A stretch of DNA of 45,681 nt from Alphaproteobacteria bacterium. Lineage in GTDB: Bacteria > Pseudomonadota > Alphaproteobacteria > Geminicoccales > Geminicoccaceae. Each line of letters starts with the position of its first letter. Positions within the stretch are counted from its first letter, which is position 1. Shown here piece after piece: positions 4,726 to 20,543 of this stretch. A program made the position numbers and the translations under genes. The stretch spans positions 1 to 45,681 of the forward strand of contig JALUAG010000069.1 of NCBI GenBank assembly GCA_027045875.1, given 5' to 3'. The notes under the pieces are model-generated. The model made no database searches, had not been told where the DNA came from, and saw only the letters and a list, made by a program, of their open reading frames with translations.

Positions 4726-6795
4726 TCAGCCCTTCCCTTCCCCGTCCTTGCGCTCGACCTCGAGCCGGCGCCTGATCGCCTCCAGCTCCTCGCGTTCGCG
4801 CAGATAGTCCTCGGTCACGCGAGGCCGGTGCGGTCTGCCGAGGGCGAAGGGATTGTCCTCCTTCTCGAACTCGACGATCACCCGGCAGTCCTCGCACATC
4901 CGCAGGAGCTCGACGCGGGCGGGATCGGCGAACATCGAATGGCTGCCGGCGAGCCGCGCCACCACGCGCTCGATGGAGCTGCGGGTGCCGAAGGGCTTGC
5001 CACAGCGCACGCATTCGAAGGGTTCCTCCTCCTTGATCAGCTGCGGCTCTCTGGTCGCGGCGCCGAAATGGAGGCGCGGCTCGAGGCGGATCACCTTCTC
5101 CGGGCAGGTGGTGCGGCAGAGGCCGCACTGCACGCAGGCCTCCTCGAGAAAGCGCAGCGCGGGCCGGTCCGGATGATCGAGCAGCGCGCCGGCCGGACAG
5201 GCGCCCACGCAGGAAAAGCACAGGGTGCAGCCGTCGGTGTCCACCACCACCCTGCCGAAGGGCGCCCCCGCCGGCAGCGGCAGCAGCTCCTGCAGCCGCG
5301 GCGCCACCGCCTGCAGATGATCGAGGGCGAGGCGCAGGAGCTGGCGCGTGCCGCCCATCGGCAGGAAGTCCGCCGGCGGCACCGGCGCGAATTCGACGGG
5401 CGCCCGCAGGGCCTCACCCAGGGCGTCGGGATCCTCCTCGAACAGCAGCCGCAGCCGCTCGCCCTCGTAGCCGAGGCCCGACAGCACCGCATCGACGAGC
5501 TCGACGGCGGCGACGAGCGCTCCCGCTTCCGCCCGCTTTCGCGGCGGTACGAGGATGTCGGCGCGCTCGACTCCGTAGGCCATGGCGGCGGCCAGCAGCT
5601 CCGGCCCGATCTGCGTGATCTCCTCCACCCGGAAGGGGAGCACGCGGGCCGGCAGGCCGGCGCCGAAACGCGCGAGCGCGGTCAGCAGCTCGCCGCCGTG
5701 GCGTTCCTCGTAAAGGAGGACGCGGGGGGCGGTGCCGCCCGCCCGCCGGTAGGTGGCAAGCAGCGTCCGCAGCCGCTCGAGTTGCCGATCGGCGGTCGGC
5801 GCCGCATAGCTCGCGGCCCCTGTCGGGCAGAGGCTCGCGCAGCTGCCGCAGCCGGCGCAGATCCGGGGATCGATGGCCACATGGTCGCCGTCGGGAGTGA
5901 CGGCGCCGGTGGGACAGTGATCGAGGCAGCGGGTGCAGCCCTCGAGACCGGCCCGGGAATGGGCGCAGAGCGAGGCATCGAAGGCGATGTAGCGGGGCTT
6001 CTCGAACTCGCCGACGAGGCCCGCGAGCTCCAGAAGCGCCCCCGCCACCGCCGCCGGATCGCGCGGGTCGGGGCGGAAATAGCCGTCGCGCTTCTCCGGA
6101 GCCGGAAACCAGGGCGCCTCCCCCGAGAGATCGAGCAGCAGATCGAAGGTCCGGCACGCGTCCTGCGCGTCGGGCTCGAAGGCGAGAACGCCGCGCGAGG
6201 AGACCCGTGCCGGCGCGAGCCCCGCGATCTCCACCTCGAAGGCGCCGAGATGACCCCGCGCCCCCCGGACACGGCCGCGGAAGACGGACAGATCGAACAG
6301 GCGGGGCGGCATCACCTCCTGCCGGCCGCTCAGCAGCAGGGTGGGCGCCAGCGCCTGGCCGAGCCGGCGGGCCGCCTCCAGTGCCGTCTCGTCGTGGCCG
6401 TAGACCAGGACCCGGCCCTCCGAGCGCAGGGTGACGGCGGGTGCCGGCGGCAGCGCCACCGCCGCCTCCGCGAGGAGGGCCGCCATCTTGGGCAGGGCGG
6501 CGCGGGCCTCTTCCGACCAGCCGGCGCGGTCGCGGATGTCGACGAAGCGGAGATCCCCATCAAAGCCCCGTTCCTCGGCCAGCTCCCGGAACAGCGGAGC
6601 CTCCTGCTCGCAGGCGACGATCAGTCCGGAATGGCGGTCGAGGGCCTTCTTGAAGGATTCGATCTGGCTGCGGCAGAGATGGCCGAAGATCGCCGCCTCG
6701 CCGCCGGCGCCGAGGGCCTTCGCCAGCCTGTCGGCGGCGATCGGCATCGTGTCCTGGCAGGAACAGACCAGGCATGCCTTGCCGGCCAGTTTCAT
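4726..6795 (-). CDS. multi-cluster 4Fe-4S protein of the formate dehydrogenase locus
   Basis: This 689-residue cytoplasmic protein carries four ferredoxin-type clusters in two pairs. The first pair uses C277, C287, C290, C294 and C313, C316, C319, C323; the second uses C523, C526, C529, C533 and C554, C557, C560, C564. The spacing of the first cluster is unusual, with nine residues between C277 and C287. The N-terminal 120 residues hold C8, C11, C13 and C41 (ACLVCSCQD), and the C-terminus has two more CxxC pairs (C595/C598 and C634/C637) that could bind zinc or iron. Proteins of this type are encoded beside cytochrome-linked formate dehydrogenases in alphaproteobacteria. An electron transfer or cofactor-maturation role is inferred. 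The ATG at 6795 is preferred because the upstream in-frame extension is low-complexity. The gene is divergent from the DUF3305 gene. Confidence 0.88.
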   Translation of the reverse strand: MKLAGKACLVCSCQDTMPIAADRLAKALGAGGEAAIFGHLCRSQIESFKKALDRHSGLIVACEQEAPLFRELAEERGFDGDLRFVDIRDRAGWSEEARAALPKMAALLAEAAVALPPAPAVTLRSEGRVLVYGHDETALEAARRLGQALAPTLLLSGRQEVMPPRLFDLSVFRGRVRGARGHLGAFEVEIAGLAPARVSSRGVLAFEPDAQDACRTFDLLLDLSGEAPWFPAPEKRDGYFRPDPRDPAAVAGALLELAGLVGEFEKPRYIAFDASLCAHSRAGLEGCTRCLDHCPTGAVTPDGDHVAIDPRICAGCGSCASLCPTGAASYAAPTADRQLERLRTLLATYRRAGGTAPRVLLYEERHGGELLTALARFGAGLPARVLPFRVEEITQIGPELLAAAMAYGVERADILVPPRKRAEAGALVAAVELVDAVLSGLGYEGERLRLLFEEDPDALGEALRAPVEFAPVPPADFLPMGGTRQLLRLALDHLQAVAPRLQELLPLPAGAPFGRVVVDTDGCTLCFSCVGACPAGALLDHPDRPALRFLEEACVQCGLCRTTCPEKVIRLEPRLHFGAATREPQLIKEEEPFECVRCGKPFGTRSSIERVVARLAGSHSMFADPARVELLRMCEDCRVIVEFEKEDNPFALGRPHRPRVTEDYLREREELEAIRRRLEVERKDGEGKG

Positions 6796-6861
6796 CCTCG
6801 ATCCTCCACCCACTGCGGCGGCGCGTGCTCCGGCGCCTTTCGAAGAAAGCTTGACTGCCCG

Positions 6862-6898
6862 CCCCTGCATAGCAAGACTTGCCGCTCGCCTACAGGGG
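6862..6898. promoter_or_regulatory. nested inverted repeats in a divergent promoter region
   Basis: The 116-base gap between the iron-sulfur protein gene (leftward) and the DUF3305 gene (rightward) holds an outer inverted repeat CCCCTG (6862-6867) / CAGGGG (6893-6898). Inside it is a perfect palindrome GCAAG-A-CTTGC (6872-6882). Such a layout suits a dimeric regulator acting on both promoters, but no regulator gene is next to it and no strong -35/-10 pair could be fixed here. The call as an operator is inference. Confidence 0.35.
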
Positions 6899-6911: not shown

Positions 6912-7448
6912 ATGAAGGACGGAAGCCGGGACGGGGAACGCAGCGCGGTGATGATGCTGGGCGTGGTGGTGGAACGCCGCCCGCTCGCGCATCCCTGGCA
7001 GCAGTGGCGATGGCGGGCGGTGTCGGTCATTCCCGGCGCCGGGCCGGTCGCCGGCTGGCGCGAGCTCAGGCGCGAGGGCGAGGTGGTCGAGTTCCACGCC
7101 GGCACCCTGCCCCTCGAGATCCACCGCACGGAGACCGAGGCCTACAAGTACAACCTCTCGGGCCGACCCGCGGTCTATGTGGTGATGCGGGAGACCGGGG
7201 ACGACGCGTTCCCCTGGGCGCCGGCCGAACTCTCGGCCTCGCCCTGGGACGCCCAGGCCCACGGCGAGGTGTCCGAGGACCGGGTCGAGGCGGTGCCGAT
7301 GCCGGAGCCGGTGATCGCCTGGGTCAAGGATTTCGTCGACCGCCACCATGTCGACCGCCCCTTTCTCAAGCGGCGGCGCAAGGGGCGGGACAAGGCCGCC
7401 CACGACCTCGCCGAGTTCGTGCCCGTGAGCGGGGAGGAACCGCGATGA
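6912..7448 (+). CDS. DUF3305 domain protein, formate dehydrogenase accessory
   Basis: This 178-residue protein belongs to the DUF3305 family. The conserved core runs MLGVVVERRPLAHPWQQWRW, then LPLEIHRTETEAYKYNLSG, and PAVYVVMRE; the tail KDFVDRHHVDRPFLKRRRKG is also typical. It has no signal peptide or membrane span, so it is probably cytoplasmic. The ATG at 6912 is used; ATGs at 6951 and 6954 are possible and would remove a short poorly conserved leader. Its stop overlaps the start of the DUF3306 gene by four bases (ATGA), showing translational coupling. DUF3305/DUF3306 pairs lie next to formate dehydrogenase genes in many proteobacteria; the biochemical function is not known to me. Confidence 0.87.
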   Translation: MKDGSRDGERSAVMMLGVVVERRPLAHPWQQWRWRAVSVIPGAGPVAGWRELRREGEVVEFHAGTLPLEIHRTETEAYKYNLSGRPAVYVVMRETGDDAFPWAPAELSASPWDAQAHGEVSEDRVEAVPMPEPVIAWVKDFVDRHHVDRPFLKRRRKGRDKAAHDLAEFVPVSGEEPR

Positions 7449-8005
7449 CGGAGGAACGGGAGGGCTTCGCGGCCCGCTGGTCGCGACTGAAGCGCCGCAG
7501 CCGGCGGGACGGGGAACGGCCGTCGCAGCCGGAGCCGGCCACCGAGACGGTACGGCCGCCGGCGGCGCAAGGGGCCGCCGAACCGGTGGCGGCCGAGGAG
7601 CTGCCCGATCCCGAGACGCTGTCCCCGGACGCCGACTTCAGCGTCTTCATGCGCGAGAACGTGCCGGAGCTGCTGCGGCGCAGGGCGCTGCGCCGGCTGT
7701 GGCGCAGCAACCCGATCATCGCCAACGTCGACATGCTCGACGACTATTGCGAGGACTTCACCGACGCGGCGACGGCGGCGACGGCGCTCGAGACCGCCTT
7801 CCGGACCGGCAGGAAGATGCTCGAGGAGGCCGCCGAAGGGGACGGCCGGGCGGGCGGCGCGCGGCGCGGGGCGGCGGCGCCCGCGGTCGCGCCCGAGCAA
7901 CCGGTGGCGACCGCCGGCGAGGAGGAGCCGCCGCAGCCCGGCAGCGGCGGAAGGGATACGGCCGATCCCGCGCGACCGCCGGGGGAGGGCGCGGAAAGTT
8001 CGTGA
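7445..8005 (+). CDS. DUF3306 domain protein, formate dehydrogenase accessory
   Basis: This 186-residue protein is of the DUF3306 family. The N-terminus FAARWSRLKRRSRR is basic, then a Pro/Ala/Glu-rich linker leads to the conserved segment DADFSVFMRENVPELLRRRA and LRRLWRSNPIIANVDMLDDY at roughly residues 60-110. The last 55 residues are low-complexity Ala/Gly/Glu/Pro. It has a single cysteine and no transmembrane helix. It starts by a four-base overlap with the DUF3305 gene, with GGGGAGGAA as ribosome binding site. The gap to torD contains the next promoter, so this gene likely ends the accessory transcript. Confidence 0.85.
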   Translation: MTEEREGFAARWSRLKRRSRRDGERPSQPEPATETVRPPAAQGAAEPVAAEELPDPETLSPDADFSVFMRENVPELLRRRALRRLWRSNPIIANVDMLDDYCEDFTDAATAATALETAFRTGRKMLEEAAEGDGRAGGARRGAAAPAVAPEQPVATAGEEEPPQPGSGGRDTADPARPPGEGAESS

Positions 8006-8121: not shown

Positions 8122-8760
8122 ATGGAGACCACCGTCGTCGAATCCGAGTGTGCGATCGGTAGCGAGGAGCGCCTGCGGCTGCTGCCCTACAGGCTGCTGG
8201 CACGATATCTGGCGGCACCGCCCGATCGGGAGCTGCTGGATCTGACGAAGGGTCTCGAGGGCGACGACACGCCGTTCGGCCGCGCCGTCGCGGGGCTCGC
8301 CACGGCGGCCGCCGACACCACTCCGGAGGCGGCAGAGGACGAATACCACGCACTGTTCGTCGGTCTCGGACGCGGCGAGCTCCTTCCGTACGCCTCGTAC
8401 TATCTCACGGGTTTTCTGCAGGAACGGCCGCTGGCCGAGCTGCGCGGCGACCTCGAGCGGCTGGGCGTGGCCCGTGCCGAGGGTTGCCCGGAGCCCGAGG
8501 ACCACGCGGCGGCGCTCTGCGAGGTGATGGCCGGGCTGATATCGGGCGCCTTCGGCGACGGCCGCCTGGGCACCCAGAAGCGGTTCTTCGAGACCCACGT
8601 CGCGACGTGGATGGGACGCCTCTTCGCGGATCTCGAGGAGGCGCGTTCGGCTCGTCTCTATCGCCATCTCGGGACCGTCGGCCGGCGGTTCCTGGAGATC
8701 GAGGAGACGGCATTCGCGATGGTCGACGGACACGAGGCAGCGGTGTCTGTCGGCGATTGA
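8122..8760 (+). CDS. TorD/DmsD-family molybdoenzyme chaperone
   Basis: This 212-residue protein is a TorD-family cytoplasmic chaperone that binds the twin-arginine signal of a molybdoenzyme and helps cofactor insertion before export. The family core EDEYHALFVGLGRGELLPYA, followed by SYYLTGFLQERPLAELR, lies around residues 72-110, and the second half keeps FFETHVATWMGRLFADLE. The all-helical composition and length fit the family. The ATG at 8122 follows GGGAG at a good distance. It is the first gene after the promoter at 8036-8064 and is followed by the twin-arginine peptide and the catalytic subunit, its likely client. Confidence 0.9.
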   Translation: METTVVESECAIGSEERLRLLPYRLLARYLAAPPDRELLDLTKGLEGDDTPFGRAVAGLATAAADTTPEAAEDEYHALFVGLGRGELLPYASYYLTGFLQERPLAELRGDLERLGVARAEGCPEPEDHAAALCEVMAGLISGAFGDGRLGTQKRFFETHVATWMGRLFADLEEARSARLYRHLGTVGRRFLEIEETAFAMVDGHEAAVSVGD

Positions 8761-8794: not shown

Positions 8795-8989
8795 ATGCGC
8801 AAGGACGCGAACGAGACGAAGCCGGGGCGCCGCGACTTCCTGAAGCTCGCCAGTGTCGGCGCGGTCGCCGCGGGCGTGGCCGGTGTCACGGGCCCGGAGG
8901 CGAAAGCCGAAGCGCAGGCGGAGGCGAAGGGCTCGGGCTACCGCCTCACGCACCATGTCAAGAAAGTCTACGAGCTCGCGCGCTTCTGA
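8795..8989 (+). CDS. small twin-arginine peptide of the formate dehydrogenase region
   Basis: This 64-residue protein has a twin-arginine signal (GRRDFLKLASVGAVAAGVAG, residues 11-30) followed by an Ala/Glu-rich stretch and a short conserved tail, GYRLTHHVKKVYELARF. It matches the family annotated as formate dehydrogenase region TAT target. The mature part is only about 25 residues, with two adjacent histidines and no cysteine. It lies between torD and the catalytic subunit gene with GGGGAAGGG as ribosome binding site. Whether it is a subunit, an escort peptide or a regulator of export is unknown. Confidence 0.87.
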   Translation: MRKDANETKPGRRDFLKLASVGAVAAGVAGVTGPEAKAEAQAEAKGSGYRLTHHVKKVYELARF

Positions 8990-9022: not shown

Positions 9023-11899
9023 ATGCTCAGGAAACGGACTTCGGGGAGTGTCAGCGGGGCGAAGCTGTCGGCCACGCTGGCCGGACTGGCCGCCGGCGCC
9101 GTCGATCGCCGCGCCTTTCTCAGGAACTCGGGTCTCGCCGCCGGCGGTCTCGCCGCGGCAGGGGCACTGTCGGGCGGCATGGTGCGCCGGGCCGAGGCTC
9201 AGTCGGCGACCCGTGGCAGCGCCGAGGTAGAAATCAAAAAGTCGATCTGCAACCATTGCGCGGTCGGCTGCACGGTGATCGCCGAGGTCAAGAAGGGCGT
9301 CTGGGTCGGCCAGGAGCCCGGCTTCGACAGCCCGATCAACCTCGGCGCCTACTGCGCCAAGGGGGCGGCGGTGCGCGACTTCGCCATCGGCGAACGACGC
9401 CTGCGCTATCCGATGCGCCTCACCGGCGGCAAGTGGCAGCGCGTGTCGTGGGAGGACGCGATCAACGAGATCGGCGACACGCTGCTCAAGATCCGCGAGG
9501 AATCGGGCCCCGATTCCGTCTACTGGCTGGGATCGGCCAAGCACAACAACGAGCAGGCCTACCTGATGCGCAAGTTCGCGGCCTTCTGGGGCACGAACAA
9601 CATCGACCATCAGGCGCGGATCTGCCATTCCACCACGGTCGCGGGTGTCGCCAACACCTGGGGCTACGGGGCGATGACCAACTCCTTCAACGACATCCAT
9701 CGCTCCCGGGCGATCATCATGTTCGGCTCCAATGCCGCCGAGGCCCATCCGGTGGCGATGCTGCACATTCTCAAGGCCAAGGAGCAGAACAACGCGCCCC
9801 TCATCGTCTGTGATCCGCGTTTCACGCGTACCGCCGCCCACGCCGACGAATACGTGCGCTTCCGTTCGGGCACCGACGTCGCGCTCGTCTGGGGCATTCT
9901 GTGGCACATCTTCGAGAACGGCTGGGAGGACAAGGAATACATCCGCCGTCGCGTGTGGGGCATGGACCGGGTGCGCGAGGAGGTCCGGAAATGGACCCCC
10001 GAGGAGACCGAGCGCGTCACCGGCGTGCCGGGCTCGCAGCTCCGGCGGGTGGCCCGTCTCCTCGCCAACAACCGGCCGGCGACCCTGATCTGGTGCATGG
10101 GCGGCACCCAGCACACCATCGGCAACAACTACACCCGGGCCTACTGCATCCTGCAGCTGGCGCTCGGCAACATCGCGGTGAGCGGCGGCGGCGCCAACAT
10201 CTTCCGCGGCCACGACAACGTGCAGGGGGCCACCGATCTGGGCGTGCTGTCGCACACCCTGCCGGGCTACTACGGCCTGTCCACCGGCGCCTGGAAGCAC
10301 TGGTCGCGGGTGTGGAACGTCGACTACGAGTACATGCTCGGCCGCTTCGCCTCCAAGGAGCTCATGGAATCCAAGGGCATCCCGGTGTCGCGCTGGTTCG
10401 ACGGGGTGCTGGAGGACAAGGCCAACATGGACCAGCCGGACAACGTCCGGGCGATGGTCTTCTGGGGGCACGCGCCGAATTCCCAGACCCGCCTGCCGGA
10501 CATGAAGCGGGCGATGGAGAAGCTCGATCTGCTGGTCATCATCGATCCGCACCCGACCTTCTCCGCGGTGCTGCACGATCGCACCGACGGCGTGTTCGTG
10601 CTGCCGGCGGCGACCCAGTTCGAGACCTACGGTTCGGTGACCGCCTCGAACCGCTCCATTCAGTGGCGGGAGAAGGTCTTCGAGCCCTTCTTCGAAGCCA
10701 AGGTCGACCACGAGATCATGTACCTGTTCGCGAAGAAGTTCGGCTTCGCGGACGAGATGTTCAAGAACATCCGGGTCAACGGCAACGAACCGCTGATCGA
10801 GGACGTGACCCGCGAGTTCAATCGCGGCATGTGGACAATCGGCTACACCGGCCAGTCGCCCGAGCGGTTGAAGTTGCACATGGCCAACCAGCACACGTTC
10901 GACCGCACTACCTTGAGGGCCAACGGCGGTCCCGCCGACGGCGAGTACTACGGGCTGCCCTGGCCCTGCTGGGGCACGCCGGAGATCAAGCATCCCGGCA
11001 CCCCCATCCTCTACGACACCAGCAAGCACGTGATGGAGGGCGGCCTCACCTTCCGCGCCCGCTTCGGCGTCGAGTACGAGGGCGAGAACCTGCTGGCCGA
11101 GGGCAGCTATTCCGTGGGCTCGGAGATCAAGGACGGCTATCCCGAGTTCACCATGGAGATGCTGACCCGGCTCGGCTGGGATCGCGATCTCACCGAGGAA
11201 GAGCGGGCCACCATCGAGGCCATCGCCGGTCCCAAGACCAACTGGAAGATCGATCTCTCCGGCGGCATCCAGCGGGTGGCCCTCAAGCACGGCTGCGCTC
11301 CCTTCGGCAACGCCAAGGCCCGCTGCTACGTCTGGAACTTCCCCGATCCGATCCCGGTCCATCGGGAGCCGCTGTACACGCCGCGGCGGGATCTGGTGAA
11401 GGACTATCCCACCTACGAGGACCGGAAGTTCTACCGGCTGCCGACGCTCTACCGCTCGATCCAGGAGACGGACTACTCCAAGGACTTCCCGATCATTCTC
11501 ACCTCGGGGCGGCTCGTGGAATACACGGGCGGTGGCGACGAGACCCGCTCCAGCGCGTGGCTGGCGGAGCTCCAGCAGCACATGTTCGTCGAGATCAATC
11601 CCTACGACGCCAACACCATCGGCATCCGCGACGGGCAGATGGTGTGGGTCGAGGGGCCGGAGGGCGGCAAGGTCCTGGTGATGGCGATGGTCACCGAACG
11701 GGTGGGACGCGGCGTCGCTTTCATGCCGTTCCACTTCGCCGGCTGGTTCCAGGGGGAGGATCGTCGCCACAAGTATCCCGAGGGCGCCGATCCCTACGTG
11801 CTGGGCGAGGCGACCAACACGGCCCAGACCTACGGCTACGACTCGGTGACCCAGATGCAGGAAACCAAGACGACCCTGTGCCGCATTCAGCCGGCGTAA
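9023..11899 (+). CDS. fdh3A: periplasmic formate dehydrogenase catalytic subunit (FDH3/FdoG type)
   Basis: This 958-residue molybdopterin enzyme oxidises formate to CO2. A twin-arginine signal (DRRAFLRNSGLAAGG, residues 28-42) sends it to the periplasm. One 4Fe-4S cluster is bound by C76, C79, C83 and C111. The catalytic residue is C201 followed by H202 (ARICHSTTVAG), encoded by TGC at 9623-9625, so it is not a selenoprotein. Molybdopterin-binding stretches include GGTQHTIGNN and FRGHDNVQGATDLG, and the C-terminal dinucleotide-binding domain starts near FPIILTSGRLVEYTGGG. Length fits the alphaproteobacterial FDH3 type. The iron-sulfur subunit gene follows 12 bases downstream. Electrons would pass through that subunit to the cytochrome b encoded after the terminator at 12563-12593. 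Confidence 0.95.
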   Translation: MLRKRTSGSVSGAKLSATLAGLAAGAVDRRAFLRNSGLAAGGLAAAGALSGGMVRRAEAQSATRGSAEVEIKKSICNHCAVGCTVIAEVKKGVWVGQEPGFDSPINLGAYCAKGAAVRDFAIGERRLRYPMRLTGGKWQRVSWEDAINEIGDTLLKIREESGPDSVYWLGSAKHNNEQAYLMRKFAAFWGTNNIDHQARICHSTTVAGVANTWGYGAMTNSFNDIHRSRAIIMFGSNAAEAHPVAMLHILKAKEQNNAPLIVCDPRFTRTAAHADEYVRFRSGTDVALVWGILWHIFENGWEDKEYIRRRVWGMDRVREEVRKWTPEETERVTGVPGSQLRRVARLLANNRPATLIWCMGGTQHTIGNNYTRAYCILQLALGNIAVSGGGANIFRGHDNVQGATDLGVLSHTLPGYYGLSTGAWKHWSRVWNVDYEYMLGRFASKELMESKGIPVSRWFDGVLEDKANMDQPDNVRAMVFWGHAPNSQTRLPDMKRAMEKLDLLVIIDPHPTFSAVLHDRTDGVFVLPAATQFETYGSVTASNRSIQWREKVFEPFFEAKVDHEIMYLFAKKFGFADEMFKNIRVNGNEPLIEDVTREFNRGMWTIGYTGQSPERLKLHMANQHTFDRTTLRANGGPADGEYYGLPWPCWGTPEIKHPGTPILYDTSKHVMEGGLTFRARFGVEYEGENLLAEGSYSVGSEIKDGYPEFTMEMLTRLGWDRDLTEEERATIEAIAGPKTNWKIDLSGGIQRVALKHGCAPFGNAKARCYVWNFPDPIPVHREPLYTPRRDLVKDYPTYEDRKFYRLPTLYRSIQETDYSKDFPIILTSGRLVEYTGGGDETRSSAWLAELQQHMFVEINPYDANTIGIRDGQMVWVEGPEGGKVLVMAMVTERVGRGVAFMPFHFAGWFQGEDRRHKYPEGADPYVLGEATNTAQTYGYDSVTQMQETKTTLCRIQPA

Positions 11900-11911: not shown

Positions 11912-12508
11912 ATGGCAAGAATGAGGTTCCTGGTCGACGCGGACCGCTGTATCGAATGCAACGCCTGCGTCACCGCCTGCAAGAACGAGAACGAGGTGCC
12001 CTGGGGTATCAACCGCCGGCGCGTGGTCACCCTGAACGACGGCATGCCGGGCGAGCGCTCGATCTCGGTGGCCTGCATGCACTGTTCCGACCCGCCCTGC
12101 ATGGCGGTCTGCCCGGTGGACATCTTCTACCAGACGGAAGAGGGCGTGGTGCTGCACAACAAGGAGCTGTGCATCGGCTGCGGTTACTGCTTCTATGCCT
12201 GCCCCTTCGGGGCGCCGCAGTTCCCGCAGGCCGGCAATTTCGGCACCCGGGGCAAGATGGACAAGTGCACCTTCTGCAACGGCGGCCCGCTGCCCGACAA
12301 CAGCGAGGCGGAGTATCGCATGTACGGTGCCAACCGTCTGGCCGAGGGCAAGCTTCCGATCTGCGCGGAGATGTGCGCCACCAAGGCCCTGCTCGCCGGT
12401 GACGGCGACGTGATCTCGGACATCTACCGGGAGCGCATCGTCGCCCGTGGCTTCGGTGCCGGGGCCTGGGGCTGGGGCACCGCATACCAGATCAAGGGTG
12501 GTATCTGA
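11912..12508 (+). CDS. fdh3B: formate dehydrogenase iron-sulfur (beta) subunit
   Basis: This 198-residue protein carries four ferredoxin-type clusters and relays electrons from the catalytic subunit. Cysteines occur as C13, C16, C19, C23; C55, C58, C63, C67; C87, C90, C93, C97; and C119, C122, C151, C155, the usual order of FdnH/FdoH-like proteins with swapped cluster ligands. Unlike E. coli FdnH (about 290 residues) it has no C-terminal transmembrane helix, ending at AYQIKGGI. It has no signal peptide, so it should be exported with the catalytic subunit. The ATG follows AAGGAGGCGAGGC. Two hairpins lie right after the stop. Confidence 0.93.
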   Translation: MARMRFLVDADRCIECNACVTACKNENEVPWGINRRRVVTLNDGMPGERSISVACMHCSDPPCMAVCPVDIFYQTEEGVVLHNKELCIGCGYCFYACPFGAPQFPQAGNFGTRGKMDKCTFCNGGPLPDNSEAEYRMYGANRLAEGKLPICAEMCATKALLAGDGDVISDIYRERIVARGFGAGAWGWGTAYQIKGGI

Positions 12509-12905: not shown

Positions 12906-14018
12906 ATGAGATCGCCCGCTCGCCGATTCACCGGTCGGTTCCTCCTGCTGACCCTGTTCCTCTTCCTGCCGCTCGTCGTGACGCTCGCCCAGACCCCGGT
13001 GCCGGTGGTGCCCGAGAGTGTCCGTCCGCCGGCCAAGGCGGTGACCGGCGACCCCGGGCCGGACATGGTCACCGTCGTTCCGCAACCCGCGGTCACCGAT
13101 CTCTGGCGGCAGATTCGCCGCGGCGTGGAGGGAAAGGTCTCGATCCCCGATCCGCTCGCCGGTGTCCTCATCCAGTCCGAAGGGGAGCTGTGGCGCAGCC
13201 TGAGAAACGGTCCGTACCGGACCTATTCGGCCCTGTTCCTGCTCACGGTGGTGATCGCGCTCGCCGTGTTCTTCGTCGCGCGGGGCCGCATCCGCATCGA
13301 GGGCGGACGCTCCGGCGTGCGCGTGCGGCGGTTCGGATTCTTCGAGCGTTTCTCCCACTGGCTGACCGCCACCTCCTTCGTCATCCTGGCGCTGACGGGG
13401 CTCAACATGCTCTACGGGCGCGAGCTCCTGCTGCCGCTCGTCGGCGACAGCCTGTTCGCCAGCCTCACCTTCTACGGCAAGATCACCCACAACTACGTGG
13501 CCTTCGGCTTCATGGCGGGGCTGACCCTGCTGTTCCTGCAATGGGTCTGGTTCAACTTTCCCAATCGTCACGACATCGTCTGGCTCCTCAAGGGCGGCGG
13601 GCTGTTCGGCGGCCATGCCCCCTCGAAGAAGTTCAACGCCGGCCAGAAGCTGATGTTCTGGATCGTCGTTCTCGGCGGCCTGTCGCTGAGCCTGTCGGGG
13701 CTGCAGCTCCTGTTCCCCTACCAGTTCCACGTCTTCCAGGGCGTGTTCCGCTTTCTCGAATCCTGGCTGGCCCTCGGCCTTCCCACCGAGCTCACGGTCC
13801 TACAGGAACAACAGCTCGCCGCCATCTGGCACGGGCTCTCGGGCGTGGTGATGATCGGCGTCATCCTCGGCCACATCTACATCGGGACCCTCGGGTTGGA
13901 GGGTGCCGTGGAGGCGATGTGGGAAGGCGAGGTGGATCTCAACTGGGCCCGCGAACATCACGATCTCTGGGTGGAGGAGCTGACGCGCAAGGGCATCGTC
14001 CGACAACCCGCGGAATAG
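12906..14018 (+). CDS. fdh3C: formate dehydrogenase cytochrome b556 (gamma) subunit
   Basis: This 370-residue membrane protein is the di-haem cytochrome b that takes electrons from the iron-sulfur subunit to quinone. It has a signal-like N-terminal helix (LLLTLFLFLPLVVTLA, residues 14-29), then an exported region of about 75 residues with IPDPLAGVLIQSEGELWR, a segment typical of alphaproteobacterial gamma subunits, and about five transmembrane helices. Candidate haem histidines lie in FSHWLTA, KITHNYVA, IWHGLSG and GHIYIGTLG. The ATG at 12906 follows GGAGG; the open frame upstream overlaps the previous gene. The next gene begins nine bases after the stop. Confidence 0.92.
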   Translation: MRSPARRFTGRFLLLTLFLFLPLVVTLAQTPVPVVPESVRPPAKAVTGDPGPDMVTVVPQPAVTDLWRQIRRGVEGKVSIPDPLAGVLIQSEGELWRSLRNGPYRTYSALFLLTVVIALAVFFVARGRIRIEGGRSGVRVRRFGFFERFSHWLTATSFVILALTGLNMLYGRELLLPLVGDSLFASLTFYGKITHNYVAFGFMAGLTLLFLQWVWFNFPNRHDIVWLLKGGGLFGGHAPSKKFNAGQKLMFWIVVLGGLSLSLSGLQLLFPYQFHVFQGVFRFLESWLALGLPTELTVLQEQQLAAIWHGLSGVVMIGVILGHIYIGTLGLEGAVEAMWEGEVDLNWAREHHDLWVEELTRKGIVRQPAE

Positions 14019-14026
14019 GCCTCGAG

Positions 14027-14392
14027 ATGGTGCGCGGAGCCTCGATCCCGATGATCTTCCCGCTGCTCGCCCTGATGGCGGTGTCCGCGATGGCGCTGAC
14101 CCCGGAGGAGGCGGCGCGGAAGATCGCCGAGACCTATGGCGTCGAGGTGCTGCGGGTGCGGGAGGTCGAGGACGGCGGCAGGCGTCTCTATGCCGTCACG
14201 GTGATGCTGCCGGGCGGCAACCGCAACGATGCCTTCCAGGTCGGCACCCTGACCGTCGACGCCGGGACCGGTGAGCCGGTTCCGCGCCTGCGCCACCGGC
14301 CCGACGGTTACGAGCTGCCACCGCCACCCGCGGGCACGGTGCCGGAGCCCACCGCCGACCGTCTGAGGGAACGAACCTTCGGGAGGCATTGA
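14027..14392 (+). CDS. small exported protein, possibly PepSY-like
   Basis: This 121-residue protein has a signal peptide (ASIPMIFPLLALMAVSAMA, about residues 5-23) and a mature part that starts LTPEEAARKIAETYGVEVLR and continues with RRLYAVTVMLPGG and TLTVDAGTGEPVPRL. The helix-then-strand layout and the ending on Asp-Xxx-Xxx-Thr-Gly resemble the PepSY fold, but similarity is loose. It has no cysteine. It sits between the cytochrome b and WD40-cytochrome c genes with very short spacing, so it should be made with them and work in the periplasm. Confidence 0.72.
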   Translation: MVRGASIPMIFPLLALMAVSAMALTPEEAARKIAETYGVEVLRVREVEDGGRRLYAVTVMLPGGNRNDAFQVGTLTVDAGTGEPVPRLRHRPDGYELPPPPAGTVPEPTADRLRERTFGRH

Positions 14393-14409: not shown

Positions 14410-15789
14410 ATGTGGTGGCAGATGAACCCCGAATCCCGCCGTCCGTCGACGTACCCGCTCGCATGGGCCGCTCTCCTCGCCGCGATGGTGTGGGCGGTAG
14501 AGAGCCCGGCATCGTCGGACGAGGATCCGCTCGTCCAGCACGGCGGCCCGGCGAAGGCGGTGGCGGTGACCGCCGACGGCCGCCTCGCGGTCACCGCCGG
14601 CTTCGATTACAGTCTGGTGGTCTGGGATCTCCGCGGCCCCGAGGCCCTCCGGCGCCTGCTCGGTCACGATGCGCCCCTCAACGACGTCGCCCTGTCGCCG
14701 GACGGACGCCTCGCGGTCTCGGCCAGCGACGACCGCAGGGTGGGGGTGTGGGATCCCGCCACCGGAAGGCTGCGGGCTCTGCTGCGCGGGCACGAGGCCA
14801 AGGTGGCGGCGGTGACGCTTTCCGCCGACGGCCGGTGGGCCGCCTCGGCCGGCTGGGACGGCACGGTGCGGGTCTGGGATCTCGCCTCGAATCGCGAGAT
14901 CCGCCGCTTCCGCGAGCCGTCGCGGCGCTTCACCACCGTCGCCTTCGTCGACGGAAACGCCCTGCTCGCGGCAGGCGACCATAGCGGTGCACTCCGCCTG
15001 TGGCGCCTCGCGGACGGCGTCCCGCTGTGGCTGCGGAAGGGCAACGGGTTCCCCCTCACCCGCCTCGTCACCGCCCGCGACCGGCTGGTCACGGGCTCCA
15101 TCGACGGCACCATCCGCGGCTATGCGGTCGAGGACGGGCGGGAACTGTTCCGCTTCGAAGGGCAGGAAAAGCCCGTCCTGAGCCTCGCCGCGGCGGCGGA
15201 CGGGAGACGTCTCGCGAGCGGCACCGCCGCCGGCACCATCTATCTCTGGGACACCGCCGAGGGACGCGCCGAACGCATCCTCCGCACCGCCCGCGGCCCG
15301 GTCTGGGGGCTCGCCTTCGCCCCCGACGGCACGATCCTCTATTCGGTGCACAACGACGGGGCCATGCGTCTCTGGGAGCTCGCCACCGGCCGTCAGCTCG
15401 CCGGGCCGCGGGAGGTCTATCTCACCGCCACCGACCGGCTCTCGGGCCACGACCGGGGCGCCAGGCTGTTCCGCACTTGCAGCAAGTGCCATTCGGTGAC
15501 ACCGGACGACGAGAACAAATCCGGCCCCACCTTCTACGGGCTGATCGGCCGTCGTGCGGGATCGGTGCCCGGTTATCCCTACAGCCGGGCGCTGGCCGAA
15601 AGTGGTATCGTGTGGACCGAGGAGACGCTGGCGCGGCTGTTCGAACTCGGGCCGGAGAACTATCTGCCCGGTACCCGGATGCCCTTCCAGCGCATGCCCG
15701 ACGCCCAGGACCGGGCCGAGCTGGTCGCCTACATCGCCCGCGTCACGCGGCCCAGGAACGGCCCGAACGAGACAGGAAACCGCCCATGA
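14410..15789 (+). CDS. exported WD40 beta-propeller fused to class I cytochrome c
   Basis: This 459-residue protein starts with a signal-like segment (PLAWAALLAAMVWAVESPASS). Seven WD40-type blades follow, most with a D-[GD] turn and a closing WD or WE pair, for example LVVWDLRG, VGVWDPATG, VRVWDLAS, IYLWDTAEG and MRLWELATG. The last 100 residues are a class I cytochrome c: haem motif CSKCH, then GPTFYGLIGRRAGSVPGY and the likely axial methionine in PGTRMPF. It would be periplasmic and could accept electrons from formate oxidation or pass them to an oxidase. The start is uncertain: a TTG at 14389 overlaps the previous stop, while ATGs at 14410 and 14422 are also in frame. The fusion of a propeller to cytochrome c is seen in other proteins, but its use beside formate dehydrogenase is not something I can place. 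Confidence 0.88.
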   Translation: MWWQMNPESRRPSTYPLAWAALLAAMVWAVESPASSDEDPLVQHGGPAKAVAVTADGRLAVTAGFDYSLVVWDLRGPEALRRLLGHDAPLNDVALSPDGRLAVSASDDRRVGVWDPATGRLRALLRGHEAKVAAVTLSADGRWAASAGWDGTVRVWDLASNREIRRFREPSRRFTTVAFVDGNALLAAGDHSGALRLWRLADGVPLWLRKGNGFPLTRLVTARDRLVTGSIDGTIRGYAVEDGRELFRFEGQEKPVLSLAAAADGRRLASGTAAGTIYLWDTAEGRAERILRTARGPVWGLAFAPDGTILYSVHNDGAMRLWELATGRQLAGPREVYLTATDRLSGHDRGARLFRTCSKCHSVTPDDENKSGPTFYGLIGRRAGSVPGYPYSRALAESGIVWTEETLARLFELGPENYLPGTRMPFQRMPDAQDRAELVAYIARVTRPRNGPNETGNRP

Positions 15790-16068: not shown

Positions 16069-17760
16069 ATGAAGGGCGACGGCGGGCGCTTGGGTGGCGG
16101 AGAGCGGCGCGGGCGGGCGACGCCGCGCGGACGGCAGGTGGAGCCCGGGGCGCTGGCCGAGGTGCGCGCCCTGCTCGGCGACCGGCCCAGACGCGCCGAT
16201 CTGCTGATCGAGCATCTCCATCTCCTGCAGGACGAATGCGGCCATCTTTCGGCCCGCCATCTGGCGGCCCTCGCCGAGGAGATGCGCCTGCCGCAGGCGG
16301 CGGTGTTCGAGGTGGCCACCTTCTACGCCCATTTCGACGTCGTGAAGGAGGACGGGACGCCCCCGCCACCGGTGACCGTCCGGGTGTGCGACAGCATCTC
16401 CTGCATGCTGGCGGGCGCCGAGACCCTGCTCACCGAACTGCGTCGCGGTCTCGATCCGAAGGAGGTGCGCGTGCGGCGCGCGCCCTGTATGGGCGCCTGC
16501 GACCGGGCACCCGCCTGCACGGCCGGCAGACGATTGATCGCCCCCGCCACGCCCGAGGCGGTGATGGACGCCGTCGCCGCCGACGAGCTCGATCCCGAAC
16601 CGCCGGCGCACATCGGCCTCGCCGCCTATCGCAACATGGGCGGCTACCGGCTGCTGGAAGCGGTCCGCGGAGGTGCCCGCGACGATGTGATCGCCCGGCT
16701 CTCCGCGGCCGAGCTGCGCGGCCTCGGCGGAGCCGGCTTTCCCACCGGCCGCAAATGGGAGATCGTCGCCGCCCAGCCCGCCCCCCGTTATCTCTGTATC
16801 AACGCCGACGAGGGCGAGCCCGGTACCTTCAAGGACCGCCACTGCCTCGCGAGCGATCCCCATCGGGTACTGGAGGGCGCGCTGATCGCCGCCCATGTGG
16901 TGGGCATCGACCGGATCTATTTCTATCTGCGCGACGAGTATCCCGAGATCCACGCCATGCTCGCCGCCGAGATCGCCGAGCTCGAACGGGTGGGCCTCGT
17001 GGCACCCGGCTTCCTCGAGCTCCGCCGCGGTGCCGGCGCCTACATCTGCGGCGAGGAATCGGCGATGATCGAGAGCATCGAGGGGAAACGGGGACTCCCT
17101 CGTCATCGTCCACCCTACGTGGCGAGCGTCGGCCTCTTCGGCCGGCCGACCCTGGTCAACAACGTCGAGACCCTGTTCTGGGTGCGCGACATCCTCGAAA
17201 AGGGTGCCGACTGGTTCGCCTCCCAGGGAAGGCGCGGACACAAGGGGTTCCGCTCCTTTTCGGTATCCGGGCGGGTGCGGGAGCCCGGGGTCAAGCTCGC
17301 CCCCGCCGGCATCACCGCCCGCGAGCTGATCGAGGAGTTCTGCGGCGGCATGGCCGAGGGGCACCGCCTGCGGGCCTATCTGCCGGGCGGCGCCTCGGGC
17401 GGAATCCTCCCCGCCTCGCTCGCGGACGTTCCGCTCGATTTCGGTACCCTCGAGCCATACGGCTGCTTCGTCGGCTCCCATGCGGTGGTGGTGCTGTCCG
17501 AACGCGACGATCTCCGGGCGGTGGCACTCAACCTTTTGCGCTTCTTCACCGAGGAATCCTGCGGGCAGTGCACCCCCTGCCGGGCGGGGACCGAGAAGGC
17601 GGTGCGGCTCATGGAGGCGGGGCGCTGGGATCCCAGCCTGCTCGGGGAGCTCGCGCAGGTGATGGCCGAGGCCTCGATCTGCGGGCTCGGCCAGGCGGCG
17701 GGCAACCCGCTGCTGTGCCTGTTCCGCCATTTCCCCGAGATCTTCGAAGGCGCGGAGTGA
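16069..17760 (+). CDS. fdsB: NAD-type formate dehydrogenase, fused NuoE/NuoF-like (gamma-beta) subunit
   Basis: This 563-residue cytoplasmic protein joins two diaphorase parts in one chain. Residues 25-165 are NuoE/FdsG-like, with a 2Fe-2S site from C107, C112, C140 and C144. Residues about 185-563 are NuoF/FdsB-like: LGGAGFPTGRKW (219-230) and NADEGEPGTF (245-254) bind FMN and NAD, GAGAYICGEESA follows, and ESCGQCTPCRAGT near residue 500 binds a 4Fe-4S cluster. It should pass electrons from formate oxidation to NAD+. Separate FdsG and FdsB proteins are usual in Rhodobacter and Cupriavidus, while a fused chain is known for the tungsten FDH1 of Methylorubrum. The alpha subunit gene follows five bases downstream. 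Confidence 0.92.
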   Translation: MKGDGGRLGGGERRGRATPRGRQVEPGALAEVRALLGDRPRRADLLIEHLHLLQDECGHLSARHLAALAEEMRLPQAAVFEVATFYAHFDVVKEDGTPPPPVTVRVCDSISCMLAGAETLLTELRRGLDPKEVRVRRAPCMGACDRAPACTAGRRLIAPATPEAVMDAVAADELDPEPPAHIGLAAYRNMGGYRLLEAVRGGARDDVIARLSAAELRGLGGAGFPTGRKWEIVAAQPAPRYLCINADEGEPGTFKDRHCLASDPHRVLEGALIAAHVVGIDRIYFYLRDEYPEIHAMLAAEIAELERVGLVAPGFLELRRGAGAYICGEESAMIESIEGKRGLPRHRPPYVASVGLFGRPTLVNNVETLFWVRDILEKGADWFASQGRRGHKGFRSFSVSGRVREPGVKLAPAGITARELIEEFCGGMAEGHRLRAYLPGGASGGILPASLADVPLDFGTLEPYGCFVGSHAVVVLSERDDLRAVALNLLRFFTEESCGQCTPCRAGTEKAVRLMEAGRWDPSLLGELAQVMAEASICGLGQAAGNPLLCLFRHFPEIFEGAE

Positions 17761-17765
17761 CGGCG

Positions 17766-20543
17766 ATGTCCGAGACCATCCGCTTTCTGCTCGACGGGCG
17801 CCATGTGGAGGCCCGATCCGACGAGACCATCTGGCAGGTGGCGGCGCGGGAGGGCATCGAGATCCCGCATCTCTGCTGGCTGCCCGAACCCGGCTACCGC
17901 GCGGACGGCAACTGCCGTGCCTGCATGGTGGAGATCGAGGGCGAGCGGACGCTGGCCGCCTCCTGTATCCGCCGGCCGCAGCCGGGCATGGTGGTGCGTT
18001 CGGCGAGCGAGCGCGCCCGGCGGGCACGGGCGATGGTGATGGAGCTGCTGCTCGCCGATCAGCCGCGGGAGGACGACGCCCACGATCCGGATTCCCGCCT
18101 CTGGCAGTGGGCGGCGCGCATGGGGGTGCGGGAAAGCCGCTTTCCGGCCCGCGAGCCGCCGCCGGCCGACCGGTCGCATCCGGCGATGGTGGTGCAGCTC
18201 GACGCCTGCATCCAGTGCACCCTCTGCGTCCGCGCCTGCCGCGAGGTGCAGGTGAACGACGTGATCGGCATGGCCTACCGTGGGCACGGCAGCAGGATCG
18301 TGTTCGACATGGACGATCCGATGGGGGCCTCGACCTGCGTCGCCTGCGGGGAGTGCGTCCAGGCCTGCCCCACCGGCGCCCTGCTGCCCGCGAGCGTCGT
18401 CGACCGGGAGAGCGGCCGCGCCGATTTCCGGGCCGATCGGGAGGTCCGCAGCGTCTGCCCCTACTGCGGCGTCGGCTGCCAGCTCGTCTACCACATCCGT
18501 GACGACCGCATCGCCTGGGTCACCGGCGCGCCCGGTCCGGCCAACGAGAGCCGCCTCTGCGTCAAGGGCCGCTTCGGCTTCGACTACGTCCACCACCCGC
18601 ACCGGCTGACGGTGCCGCTGGTGCGCAGGCCGGGGGTGCCGAAGCGCGCCGACGACGTGGTCGATCCGGCCAATCCCTGGACCCATTTCCGGGAGGCGAG
18701 CTGGGAGGAGGCGCTGGATCTGGCGGCGGCCGGGCTGCGACGCATCCGCGAGCGTCACGGCAGCCGGGCGCTGGCCGGCTTCGGCTCGGCCAAATGTACC
18801 AACGAGGAGGCCTATCTGTTCCAGAAGCTGGTGCGTACCGGGTTCGGCTCCAACTACGTGGACCACTGCACCCGCCTCTGCCACGCCTCCTCGGTGGCGG
18901 CACTCATGGAGGGCATCGGCAGCGGCGCCGTCACCGCCCCCTTCACCGAGGCGCTGAACGCCGATCTCGTCTTCGTCATCGGCGCCAACCCCACCGAGAA
19001 CCATCCGGTGGCCGCCACCTACTTCAAGCAGGCGGCCGCACGCGGCGCCAAACTCGTGGTCGCCGATCCGCGCGGCCAGGCGCTGCGACGCCACGCGACC
19101 TGGATGCTCCAGTTCCGGCCCGGCAGCGACGTCGCCCTGCTGAACGCGATAATGCATGTGATCGTCAGCGAAGAGCTGTTCGATTCGCAGTTCGTCCAGG
19201 CCCGCACCGAGAATTTCGAACGTCTGAAAGCCCATCTGGCCCACTTCCCGCCCGAGAAGATGGCCGATCTCTGCGGCGTTCCCGCCGCGACCATCCGCGA
19301 GGTGGCACGGGCCTACGCGCGGGCCGAGCGGGCCATCATCTTCTGGGGCATGGGCGTGTCGCAGCACGTCCACGGCACCGACAACGTCCGCTGCCTGATC
19401 TCGCTCGCCACCATCTGCGGCCATGTCGGCCGGCCGGGCACCGGCCTCCATCCGCTGCGCGGGCAGAACAACGTGCAGGGCGCCTCCGACGCCGGCCTCA
19501 TCCCCATGGTCTTCCCGGACTATCACCCCACGGGCGAGGACGGCTTCCGCGCCCGTCTCGAGACCCTCTGGGGGGCGGAGCTCGACCCCGAGCCCGGCCT
19601 CACCGTGGTCGAGATCGTCGACGCCGCCCGCGAAGGACGGATCCGCGGCATGTACATCATGGGCGAGAATCCGGCGATGTCGGATCCCGATGCCCAGCAC
19701 GCCCGCGAGGGCCTCGCCCGGCTCGAGCATCTCGTGGTGCAGGACATCTTCCTCACCGAGACGGCGTTCCACGCCGACGTGATCCTGCCGGCCTCGGCCT
19801 GGCCGGAAAAGGAGGGCACGGTCACCAACACCAACCGGCAGGTGCAGATGGGACGCATCGCCCTGCCGCTGCCGGGGGACGCCCGTCCCGACTGGTGGAT
19901 CGTCCAGGAGATCGCCCGCCGGATGGGCCTCGACTGGGACTACGGGGGACCGGCCGAGGTATTCGCCGAGATGAAGGAGGTGATGGGCTCCCTCGACAAC
20001 ATCACCTGGCAGCGGCTGCAGCGCGAGCATGCGGTGGCCTATCCCTGTCCGGCGCCCGACCACCCGGGAAAGGGGGTGGTGTTCGAGGAGCACTTCCCCA
20101 CCCCGAGCGGACGCGCGCGGCTGGTGCCGGCCGAGGTCCAACCGCCGGCCGAGACCCCGGACGAGGCGTTTCCGATGATCCTCACCACCGGCCGCACCCT
20201 CGTGCACTGGCACACCGGCGCCATCACCCGTCATGCCGAAGTGCTCGACAGCCTCGAGCCGACGCCCTTCTGCGCCATGAACCGCGGCGACCTCGAACGG
20301 CTGGGCATCGCGCCGGGCGCCGAGGTGCGGGTGGCCACCCGACGCGGTGCCATCACCCTGATGGCGCGGCAGGATCCGGCGGTGCCGCAGGGGGTCGTCT
20401 TCATCCCCTTCTGCTACCGCGAGGCCGCCGCCAACATCCTGACCAACCCGCAGCTCGATCCCTTCGGCAAGATCCCCGAGTTCAAGTTCTGCGCCTGCCG
20501 GGTCGAGCCCGCGGAGGCGGTCGTTGCCGCCGGCCGGGTCTGA
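17766..20543 (+). CDS. fdsA: NAD-type formate dehydrogenase molybdopterin (alpha) subunit
   Basis: This 925-residue protein oxidises formate in the cytoplasm. In order it shows a 2Fe-2S domain (C37, C50, C53, C67), two ferredoxin-type clusters (C148, C151, C154, C158 and C191, C194, C197, C201), a 4Fe-4S site of the catalytic domain (C231, C234, C238, C265) and the catalytic pair C372-H373 (RLCHASSVA; TGC at 18879). Molybdopterin-binding stretches include GVSQHVHGTDN and LRGQNNVQGASD. There is no twin-arginine signal. The His-Cys 4Fe-4S site that NuoG-like subunits carry between the 2Fe-2S and ferredoxin parts is absent: no cysteine lies between C67 and C148. The start ATG at 17766 follows the fdsB stop by five bases. 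No fdsD or fdhD gene follows. Confidence 0.94.
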   Translation: MSETIRFLLDGRHVEARSDETIWQVAAREGIEIPHLCWLPEPGYRADGNCRACMVEIEGERTLAASCIRRPQPGMVVRSASERARRARAMVMELLLADQPREDDAHDPDSRLWQWAARMGVRESRFPAREPPPADRSHPAMVVQLDACIQCTLCVRACREVQVNDVIGMAYRGHGSRIVFDMDDPMGASTCVACGECVQACPTGALLPASVVDRESGRADFRADREVRSVCPYCGVGCQLVYHIRDDRIAWVTGAPGPANESRLCVKGRFGFDYVHHPHRLTVPLVRRPGVPKRADDVVDPANPWTHFREASWEEALDLAAAGLRRIRERHGSRALAGFGSAKCTNEEAYLFQKLVRTGFGSNYVDHCTRLCHASSVAALMEGIGSGAVTAPFTEALNADLVFVIGANPTENHPVAATYFKQAAARGAKLVVADPRGQALRRHATWMLQFRPGSDVALLNAIMHVIVSEELFDSQFVQARTENFERLKAHLAHFPPEKMADLCGVPAATIREVARAYARAERAIIFWGMGVSQHVHGTDNVRCLISLATICGHVGRPGTGLHPLRGQNNVQGASDAGLIPMVFPDYHPTGEDGFRARLETLWGAELDPEPGLTVVEIVDAAREGRIRGMYIMGENPAMSDPDAQHAREGLARLEHLVVQDIFLTETAFHADVILPASAWPEKEGTVTNTNRQVQMGRIALPLPGDARPDWWIVQEIARRMGLDWDYGGPAEVFAEMKEVMGSLDNITWQRLQREHAVAYPCPAPDHPGKGVVFEEHFPTPSGRARLVPAEVQPPAETPDEAFPMILTTGRTLVHWHTGAITRHAEVLDSLEPTPFCAMNRGDLERLGIAPGAEVRVATRRGAITLMARQDPAVPQGVVFIPFCYREAAANILTNPQLDPFGKIPEFKFCACRVEPAEAVVAAGRV

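Follow-up and report, generated by a model that had tools for sequence, protein, structure and literature searches.

A WD40 propeller-cytochrome c fusion protein linked to FDH3-type formate dehydrogenase clusters in Alphaproteobacteria

An exported seven-bladed WD40 propeller joined to a predicted class I cytochrome c is encoded within an FDH3-type formate dehydrogenase cluster of a Geminicoccaceae genome, and most of its relatives lie in clusters of the same type. The genetic linkage to FDH3 and the anatomy of the fusion are firm. We tentatively infer, at a little under an even chance, that the protein serves FDH3 as an accessory subunit in the periplasm, one that would give formate electrons an outlet to cytochrome c in parallel with quinone. 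The window, meaning the whole stretch of 45,681 nucleotides that was analyzed, makes up an entire contig of a 3.5-Mb draft genome (Table 1). The initial annotation of this DNA had already recognized the propeller and the cytochrome and placed them between the cytochrome b (gamma) subunit and an NAD-type enzyme, a position that profile matches of the neighboring genes bear out; it overlooked the small exported protein and the single-helix protein on either side of the fusion.

Table 1. Features of the formate dehydrogenase region in the window (FDH, formate dehydrogenase).
Feature	Position	Strand	Basis
4Fe-4S ferredoxin-type protein of the cluster	4726..6870	-	Pfam/profile scan
DUF3305 protein	6912..7448	+	
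DUF3306 protein	7445..8005	+	
TorD/DmsD-type chaperone	8122..8760	+	
Small TAT-leader protein of FDH clusters	8795..8989	+	
FDH alpha (molybdopterin) subunit, FdhA	9023..11899	+	
FDH3 beta subunit	11912..12508	+	NF038355, 335.1 bits over cut-off 240
FDH gamma subunit, cytochrome b561 type	12906..14018	+	TIGR01583, 134.4 bits over cut-off 115.85; start by eye
Small exported 121-aa protein, between gamma and fusion	14027..14392	+	
WD40 propeller-cytochrome c fusion, 459 aa, export-type N-terminus	14410..15789	+	One open frame, Pfam WD40, alignment, AlphaFold2
Seven-bladed WD40 propeller, residues 41-335	14530..15414	+	Alignment, AlphaFold2 model
Predicted class I cytochrome c domain, residues 340-450	15427..15759	+	Alignment, PDB match, AlphaFold2 model
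CSKCH heme motif of fusion	15478-15492	+	
Ligand Met424 of fusion	15679-15681	+	
52-aa single-helix protein (MKAFL...VRL...), start overlaps fusion stop codon	15786..15944	+	
NuoE-NuoF-type subunit (FdsB) of NAD-linked FDH	16069..17760	+	
FdsA-type alpha subunit of NAD-linked FDH	17757..20543	+	Translation read by eye; start approximate

The architecture of the fusion rests on several kinds of evidence. Its leader, judged by eye, is of the export type, Pfam WD40 matches at 1e-44, and an AlphaFold2 model built from 42 aligned sequences (mean pLDDT 90.6, pTM 0.86) folds residues 48 to 331 into 28 strands that make seven four-stranded blades, followed by five helices between residues 340 and 445. 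Among the 50 Foldseek matches shown for this model, all are WD40 or designed propellers. The C-terminal 122 residues find their best solved matches in mitochondrial-type cytochromes c (1.8e-23 in a PDB profile search), and the CxxCH motif together with a C-terminal Met in a PGT-Met loop points to a class I cytochrome c; the NCBI cytochrome c-550 CycA model NF043008 reaches 62.6 bits against its cut-off of 240, which leaves the protein outside that family. In the 42-protein alignment, which omits 10 fused frames that have no script-detected anchor motif, a copy at a contig end (L073), an interrupted copy (L086), a degraded copy (L131) and five split loci, the heme-site residues C357, C360, H361 and M424 are invariant, as are H44-G45-G46 at the start of the propeller, F65-D66 and D108, and W149 and W299 are nearly so. 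A CxxCH and a GxxM motif were found in all 65 fused cytochrome domains; the degraded L131 has no CxxCH. A single frame, recognizable domains and invariant heme residues rule out a chance match or two genes read as one. In-frame stops flagged in the genome searches fall outside the fusion gene except in G135 (L086), where one stop breaks the propeller. Interrupted or degraded copies were seen in three FDH3 clusters (L086, L131, L148), and in the Tateyamaria cluster (L148) the gamma gene also appears disrupted.

The surrounding cluster is of the FDH3 / FDH-N type, with beta and gamma subunits both above curated cut-offs. The small exported protein before the fusion has no Pfam or NCBIfam match ('PepSY' is a by-eye label without Pfam support), and tblastn finds relatives of it in 21 of the 80 stretches L054-L133. 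Six more stretches from the window's family, and two genomes of another family code, have NAD-type FdsB/FdsA genes next to the FDH3 cluster (L054, L055, L056, L058, L059, L072, L083 and L085).

Co-occurrence of the fusion with FDH3 extends well beyond this genome. Among 385 sampled Alphaproteobacteria genomes the fusion was found in at least 36 (few candidates were scored per genome, and the intact copy of G362 was missed) and FDH3 beta in 56, with both in 35 (Fisher p 7.5e-34, taking genomes as independent and ignoring kinship). FDH3 clusters hold 34 of the 37 fusion places in this sample; for 33, the stretch read includes FdhA, FdhB or gamma, and one that is counted among the 34 (L100) lies on a short contig with only accessory genes of the cluster beside it. 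Two fusions are unlinked to fdh genes (L076 in G375, L087 in G065), and another sits on a 3.9-kb contig too short to tell (L089). In the class sample only one fusion genome, G257, is without FDH3 beta, and there gamma adjoins the fusion close to the end of a contig. Within the family of the window the fusion and FDH3 beta each occur in 20 of 31 genomes, 19 of them shared, and every one of the 21 fusion places has FDH subunit genes on the stretch that was read; G015, which gave no beta match in the family search, carries beta next to the fusion, in two pieces. In G018 gamma and fusion share one contig and alpha and beta another (L063 / L108), an arrangement from which gamma and fusion may be travelling together. 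A phylum sample added eight further fusion places, all in FDH3 clusters. On plasmids, 45 records match the fusion, and each of the five opened shows it in an FDH3 cluster: it is annotated 'c-type cytochrome' in Sulfitobacter and Bradyrhizobium and 'hypothetical protein' in Sinorhizobium, has no annotation in Methylobacterium bullatum, where tblastn found it, and is disrupted in Tateyamaria, where pqq genes follow. FDH subunits and chaperones accompany the fusion across clusters. A scan of genome contigs yielded only three loci. In clusters of a second FdhA subtype, FdhA and the fusion are often about 7 to 8.4 kb apart, the fusion then adjoining the gene for the 4Fe-4S protein instead of following gamma. 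The initial annotation had tied the fusion to periplasmic formate oxidation, a link that it held would fail if homologues lay mostly away from fdh genes; they lie mostly within FDH3 clusters. This constancy of FDH3 as a neighbor is also what makes it very improbable that the fusion accepts electrons from another periplasmic C1 dehydrogenase and merely shares the cluster, a possibility to which the two unlinked fusions and the pqq genes of Tateyamaria, though the fusion is disrupted there, would otherwise lend some weight.

FDH3 beta is present without a match in the fusion search in 21 genomes of the class sample. One of these holds an intact fusion that was missed (G362) and one a degraded copy (G386); in six, propeller and cytochrome are separate, adjacent and convergent genes (G117, G158, G229, G232, G323, G397); two have a propeller only (G074, G334), with no cytochrome detected in their clusters (L114, L128); and three are cut by contig ends. 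The remaining eight, out of the 56 FDH3 genomes, have neither propeller nor cytochrome in the stretch read, which for one of them (G258) stops 1.7 kb after gamma. An apparent fusion of gamma to the propeller in L119 was discarded, as coordinate arithmetic puts the two in different frames. Of the 299 genomes of the phylum sample, 41 carry FDH3 beta: 21 Alphaproteobacteria, 17 of them with the fusion, and 20 genomes from outside the class, none of which gave a fusion match. Fifteen stretches read from 14 of those 20 contain no propeller and no cytochrome. Within this sampling, then, the fusion is something that Alphaproteobacteria have added to FDH3, an enzyme found elsewhere on its own, and because none was detected in those 20 genomes we regard it as accessory to FDH3.

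These patterns bear on whether the protein might instead serve assembly or stability, with the propeller as a scaffold that joins FdhA/B to gamma and the heme as a mark of readiness or a passenger. Propeller genes persist without a detected cytochrome in two clusters, and several genes of the cluster (TorD, DUF3305, DUF3306) probably serve maturation, as one might expect of an assembly factor; however, FDH3 clusters without a detected fusion exist both in and outside Alphaproteobacteria, and the invariant heme and Met residues point to electron transfer, such that we consider this role rather unlikely.

A single fusion event would suffice to explain the fused proteins, and the trees fit such a history. 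In the propeller tree the eight full-length separate propellers fall on one side of a branch (two further 'separate' rows, L071 and L073, are merely cut by contig ends), and in the cytochrome tree a branch divides the 65 fused cytochromes and the degraded L131 from the separate FDH3 cytochromes, on whose side three further cytochromes c from the window's genome also fall; the SH-aLRT values of these branches, 93 and 86, are both below the 95 starred by the tree program. The propeller tree has no outgroup and the cytochrome tree few columns, and they do not fix the direction. A midpoint-rooted FdhA tree of the 84 rows with a long enough FdhA match places the split clusters at the base of the second FdhA subtype.

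A second component of these clusters is the single-helix protein. It mostly has 40-60 residues, begins MKAFL..., contains one hydrophobic helix and ends in a tail with VRL or ARV, and it belongs to no convincing Pfam or NCBIfam family. Such a gene comes after the fusion, in the same orientation, in 30 of the 38 fused stretches with the window's FdhA subtype, and in four more that the script missed (L054, L058, L061, L072). With the second FdhA subtype it follows the fusion in only 1 of 18, and relatives occur elsewhere in some of those clusters; in the six split clusters it follows the separate cytochrome gene. A profile HMM matches 56 of the 80 stretches L054-L133, a partly circular count, as the 23 seed sequences of the model come from these very loci. 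Four alphaproteobacterial clusters that have no fusion carry the gene directly after gamma (L120, L121, L179, L180), as does one genome outside the class (L173, 3e-17); L173, L179 and L180 are all outside the seed set. No copy turned up in L115, L117, L124, L125, L159 and L160 or in the 14 remaining stretches read outside the class; the matches in L126 and L132 are weak and far from gamma. The window's genome has one clear copy. The protein accompanies FDH3 clusters whether or not they carry the propeller-cytochrome, and has the look of a small FDH3 partner that has so far been overlooked.

How would a tethered cytochrome fit into an enzyme that delivers its electrons to quinone? The gamma subunit keeps H18, H57, H155, H169, N110, G112 and Q113 (E. 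coli FdnI numbering) in all 70 sequences. In the FDH-N structure the four histidines ligate heme b, and N110, G112 and Q113 are residues of the quinone site. The initial annotation had suggested a docking electron acceptor that bypasses quinone. A docked acceptor still seems the best reading, and retention of the heme-b and quinone-site residues argues against the part of that idea in which the fusion replaces the quinone route; quinone reduction is therefore expected to be the main route and the cytochrome a second one. Together with the 20 outside genomes that have FDH3 beta and no detected fusion, this leaves at most a parallel branch as plausible.

The face of the propeller offers some hints as to how such a branch might be held in place. 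The second residue of strand a, which we take to line the mouth of the propeller channel, is R/K in 35 of 42 sequences in blade 1, N in 36, 28 and 21 of 42 in blades 2, 4 and 5, and W in 40 of 42 in blade 7; in the window's propeller the Asn that most sequences have in blades 4 and 5 is replaced by Thr (residues 175 and 217). Immediately ahead of the structural Asp stands F in blade 1 (42/42) and W in blade 3 (38/42). Positions of this kind are interaction hot spots in WD40 proteins. These conserved top-face residues, which have no structural role, speak for a specific partner, without naming which.

We propose that the propeller is the docking module of the fusion, and that a conserved patch at its top face and channel mouth (R/K49, F65, N91, W149, N/T175, N/T217, W299) grips either FDH3, from the periplasm, or the single-helix protein. 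The docked cytochrome would then be held within electron-transfer distance of the iron-sulfur clusters of beta or of the periplasmic heme b, and part of the formate electrons could pass to the cytochrome c pool and on to an oxidase, beside the quinone route. Such an outlet might be useful when quinone is already reduced or when formate must be removed fast. Support for it comes from the linkage to FDH3, from the invariant heme and Met residues, from the conserved top-face residues, from the six clusters in which propeller and cytochrome are separate neighbors, from trees compatible with one fusion, and from the presence of CcmE, three COX1-family genes and cytochrome c1 in the window's genome. 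Several observations weaken it. The propeller changes faster than the cytochrome (mean column majority 0.50 versus 0.63 in the alignment), which is odd for a tight dock, and compared with the quinone route the outlet would waste energy. Clusters with a WD40 propeller only, the eight FDH3 genomes with neither domain and the 20 outside genomes without the fusion also count against it, as do the distance from FdhA in one subtype, the two unlinked copies and the Thr residues at 175 and 217 in the window's own propeller. Nor does the presence of cytochrome c1 separate genomes with and without the fusion: of 70 FDH3 genomes searched, a subset of all those known from the samples, 69 gave a match, the miss being a 70% complete genome, so the bc1 complex is useless as a discriminator.

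A bolder version of the outlet, which we consider unlikely, is that alphaproteobacterial FDH3 is partly a formate:cytochrome c oxidoreductase, in which the propeller would act as a docking clamp that offers the tethered mitochondrial-type cytochrome to the membrane complex, and the single-helix protein as its membrane receptor, with the arginine of the VRL or ARV tail plugging the propeller channel much as WIN peptides do in WDR5. If this were true, the fusion and the single-helix protein would be two undescribed respiratory subunits.

Another model, which we judge quite improbable, is that the fusion is a redox sensor, the cytochrome reading the redox state of the periplasm or of FDH3 and the propeller relaying it to a regulator. 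In Sulfitobacter S190 the fusion and the small protein are followed by a sigma-54 regulator and then by a cache-domain protein, and in Sinorhizobium meliloti the end of an HTH regulator gene lies some 0.4 kb upstream of the fusion; regulators were read in these named cases, the other loci being marked with the cluster's own proteins alone. Against a sensor, the cytochrome belongs with the mitochondrial electron carriers and its Met ligand never varies in the alignment; it is not a sensor heme with an open site.

Comparison with known systems places the protein between familiar families. FDH-N and FDH3 (FdnGHI-type) share the alpha, beta and gamma subunits and the conserved gamma residues with the window's cluster, but no propeller-cytochrome gene lies in the 8 kb surrounding E. 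coli fdnGHI. Mitochondrial and alphaproteobacterial class I cytochromes c (c2, c550) share the sequence match, the CxxCH and the PGT-Met loop, whereas in the fusion the cytochrome is tethered behind a WD40 propeller and its Met lies in an MPxQ motif. A periplasmic cytochrome c joined to a beta-propeller is also found in cytochrome cd1 and PQQ alcohol dehydrogenases, but their propellers are eight-bladed enzymes with d1 heme or PQQ, and the fusion, with its seven-bladed WD40 propeller, belongs to neither. Apaf-1 is among many WD40 matches of the fusion profile in the PDB. As a portion of PMC4445527 describes the apoptosome, WD40 propellers there also stand beside a mitochondrial-type cytochrome c, held between two WD domains of Apaf-1; unlike in the fusion these are separate proteins, and the likeness is an analogy only.

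The initial annotation knew of no described role for such a fusion, and this holds for open-licence full texts: judging from search listings, we found no publication on a propeller-cytochrome c fusion there. Part of PMC4464133 reports DUF3305/DUF3306 beside fdhGHI operons, and 'WD40' is absent from its main text. The fdh3 of Methylorubrum extorquens is named in passages of PMC12445348 and PMC6414531 that mention no propeller-cytochrome gene.

Genes for the fusion occur in tractable genera, among them Sinorhizobium, Bradyrhizobium, Methylobacterium and Sulfitobacter. Formate oxidation is central to methylotrophs and is used by many other alphaproteobacteria. A conserved, overlooked heme subunit together with a tiny membrane protein would redraw the route that electrons take from formate.
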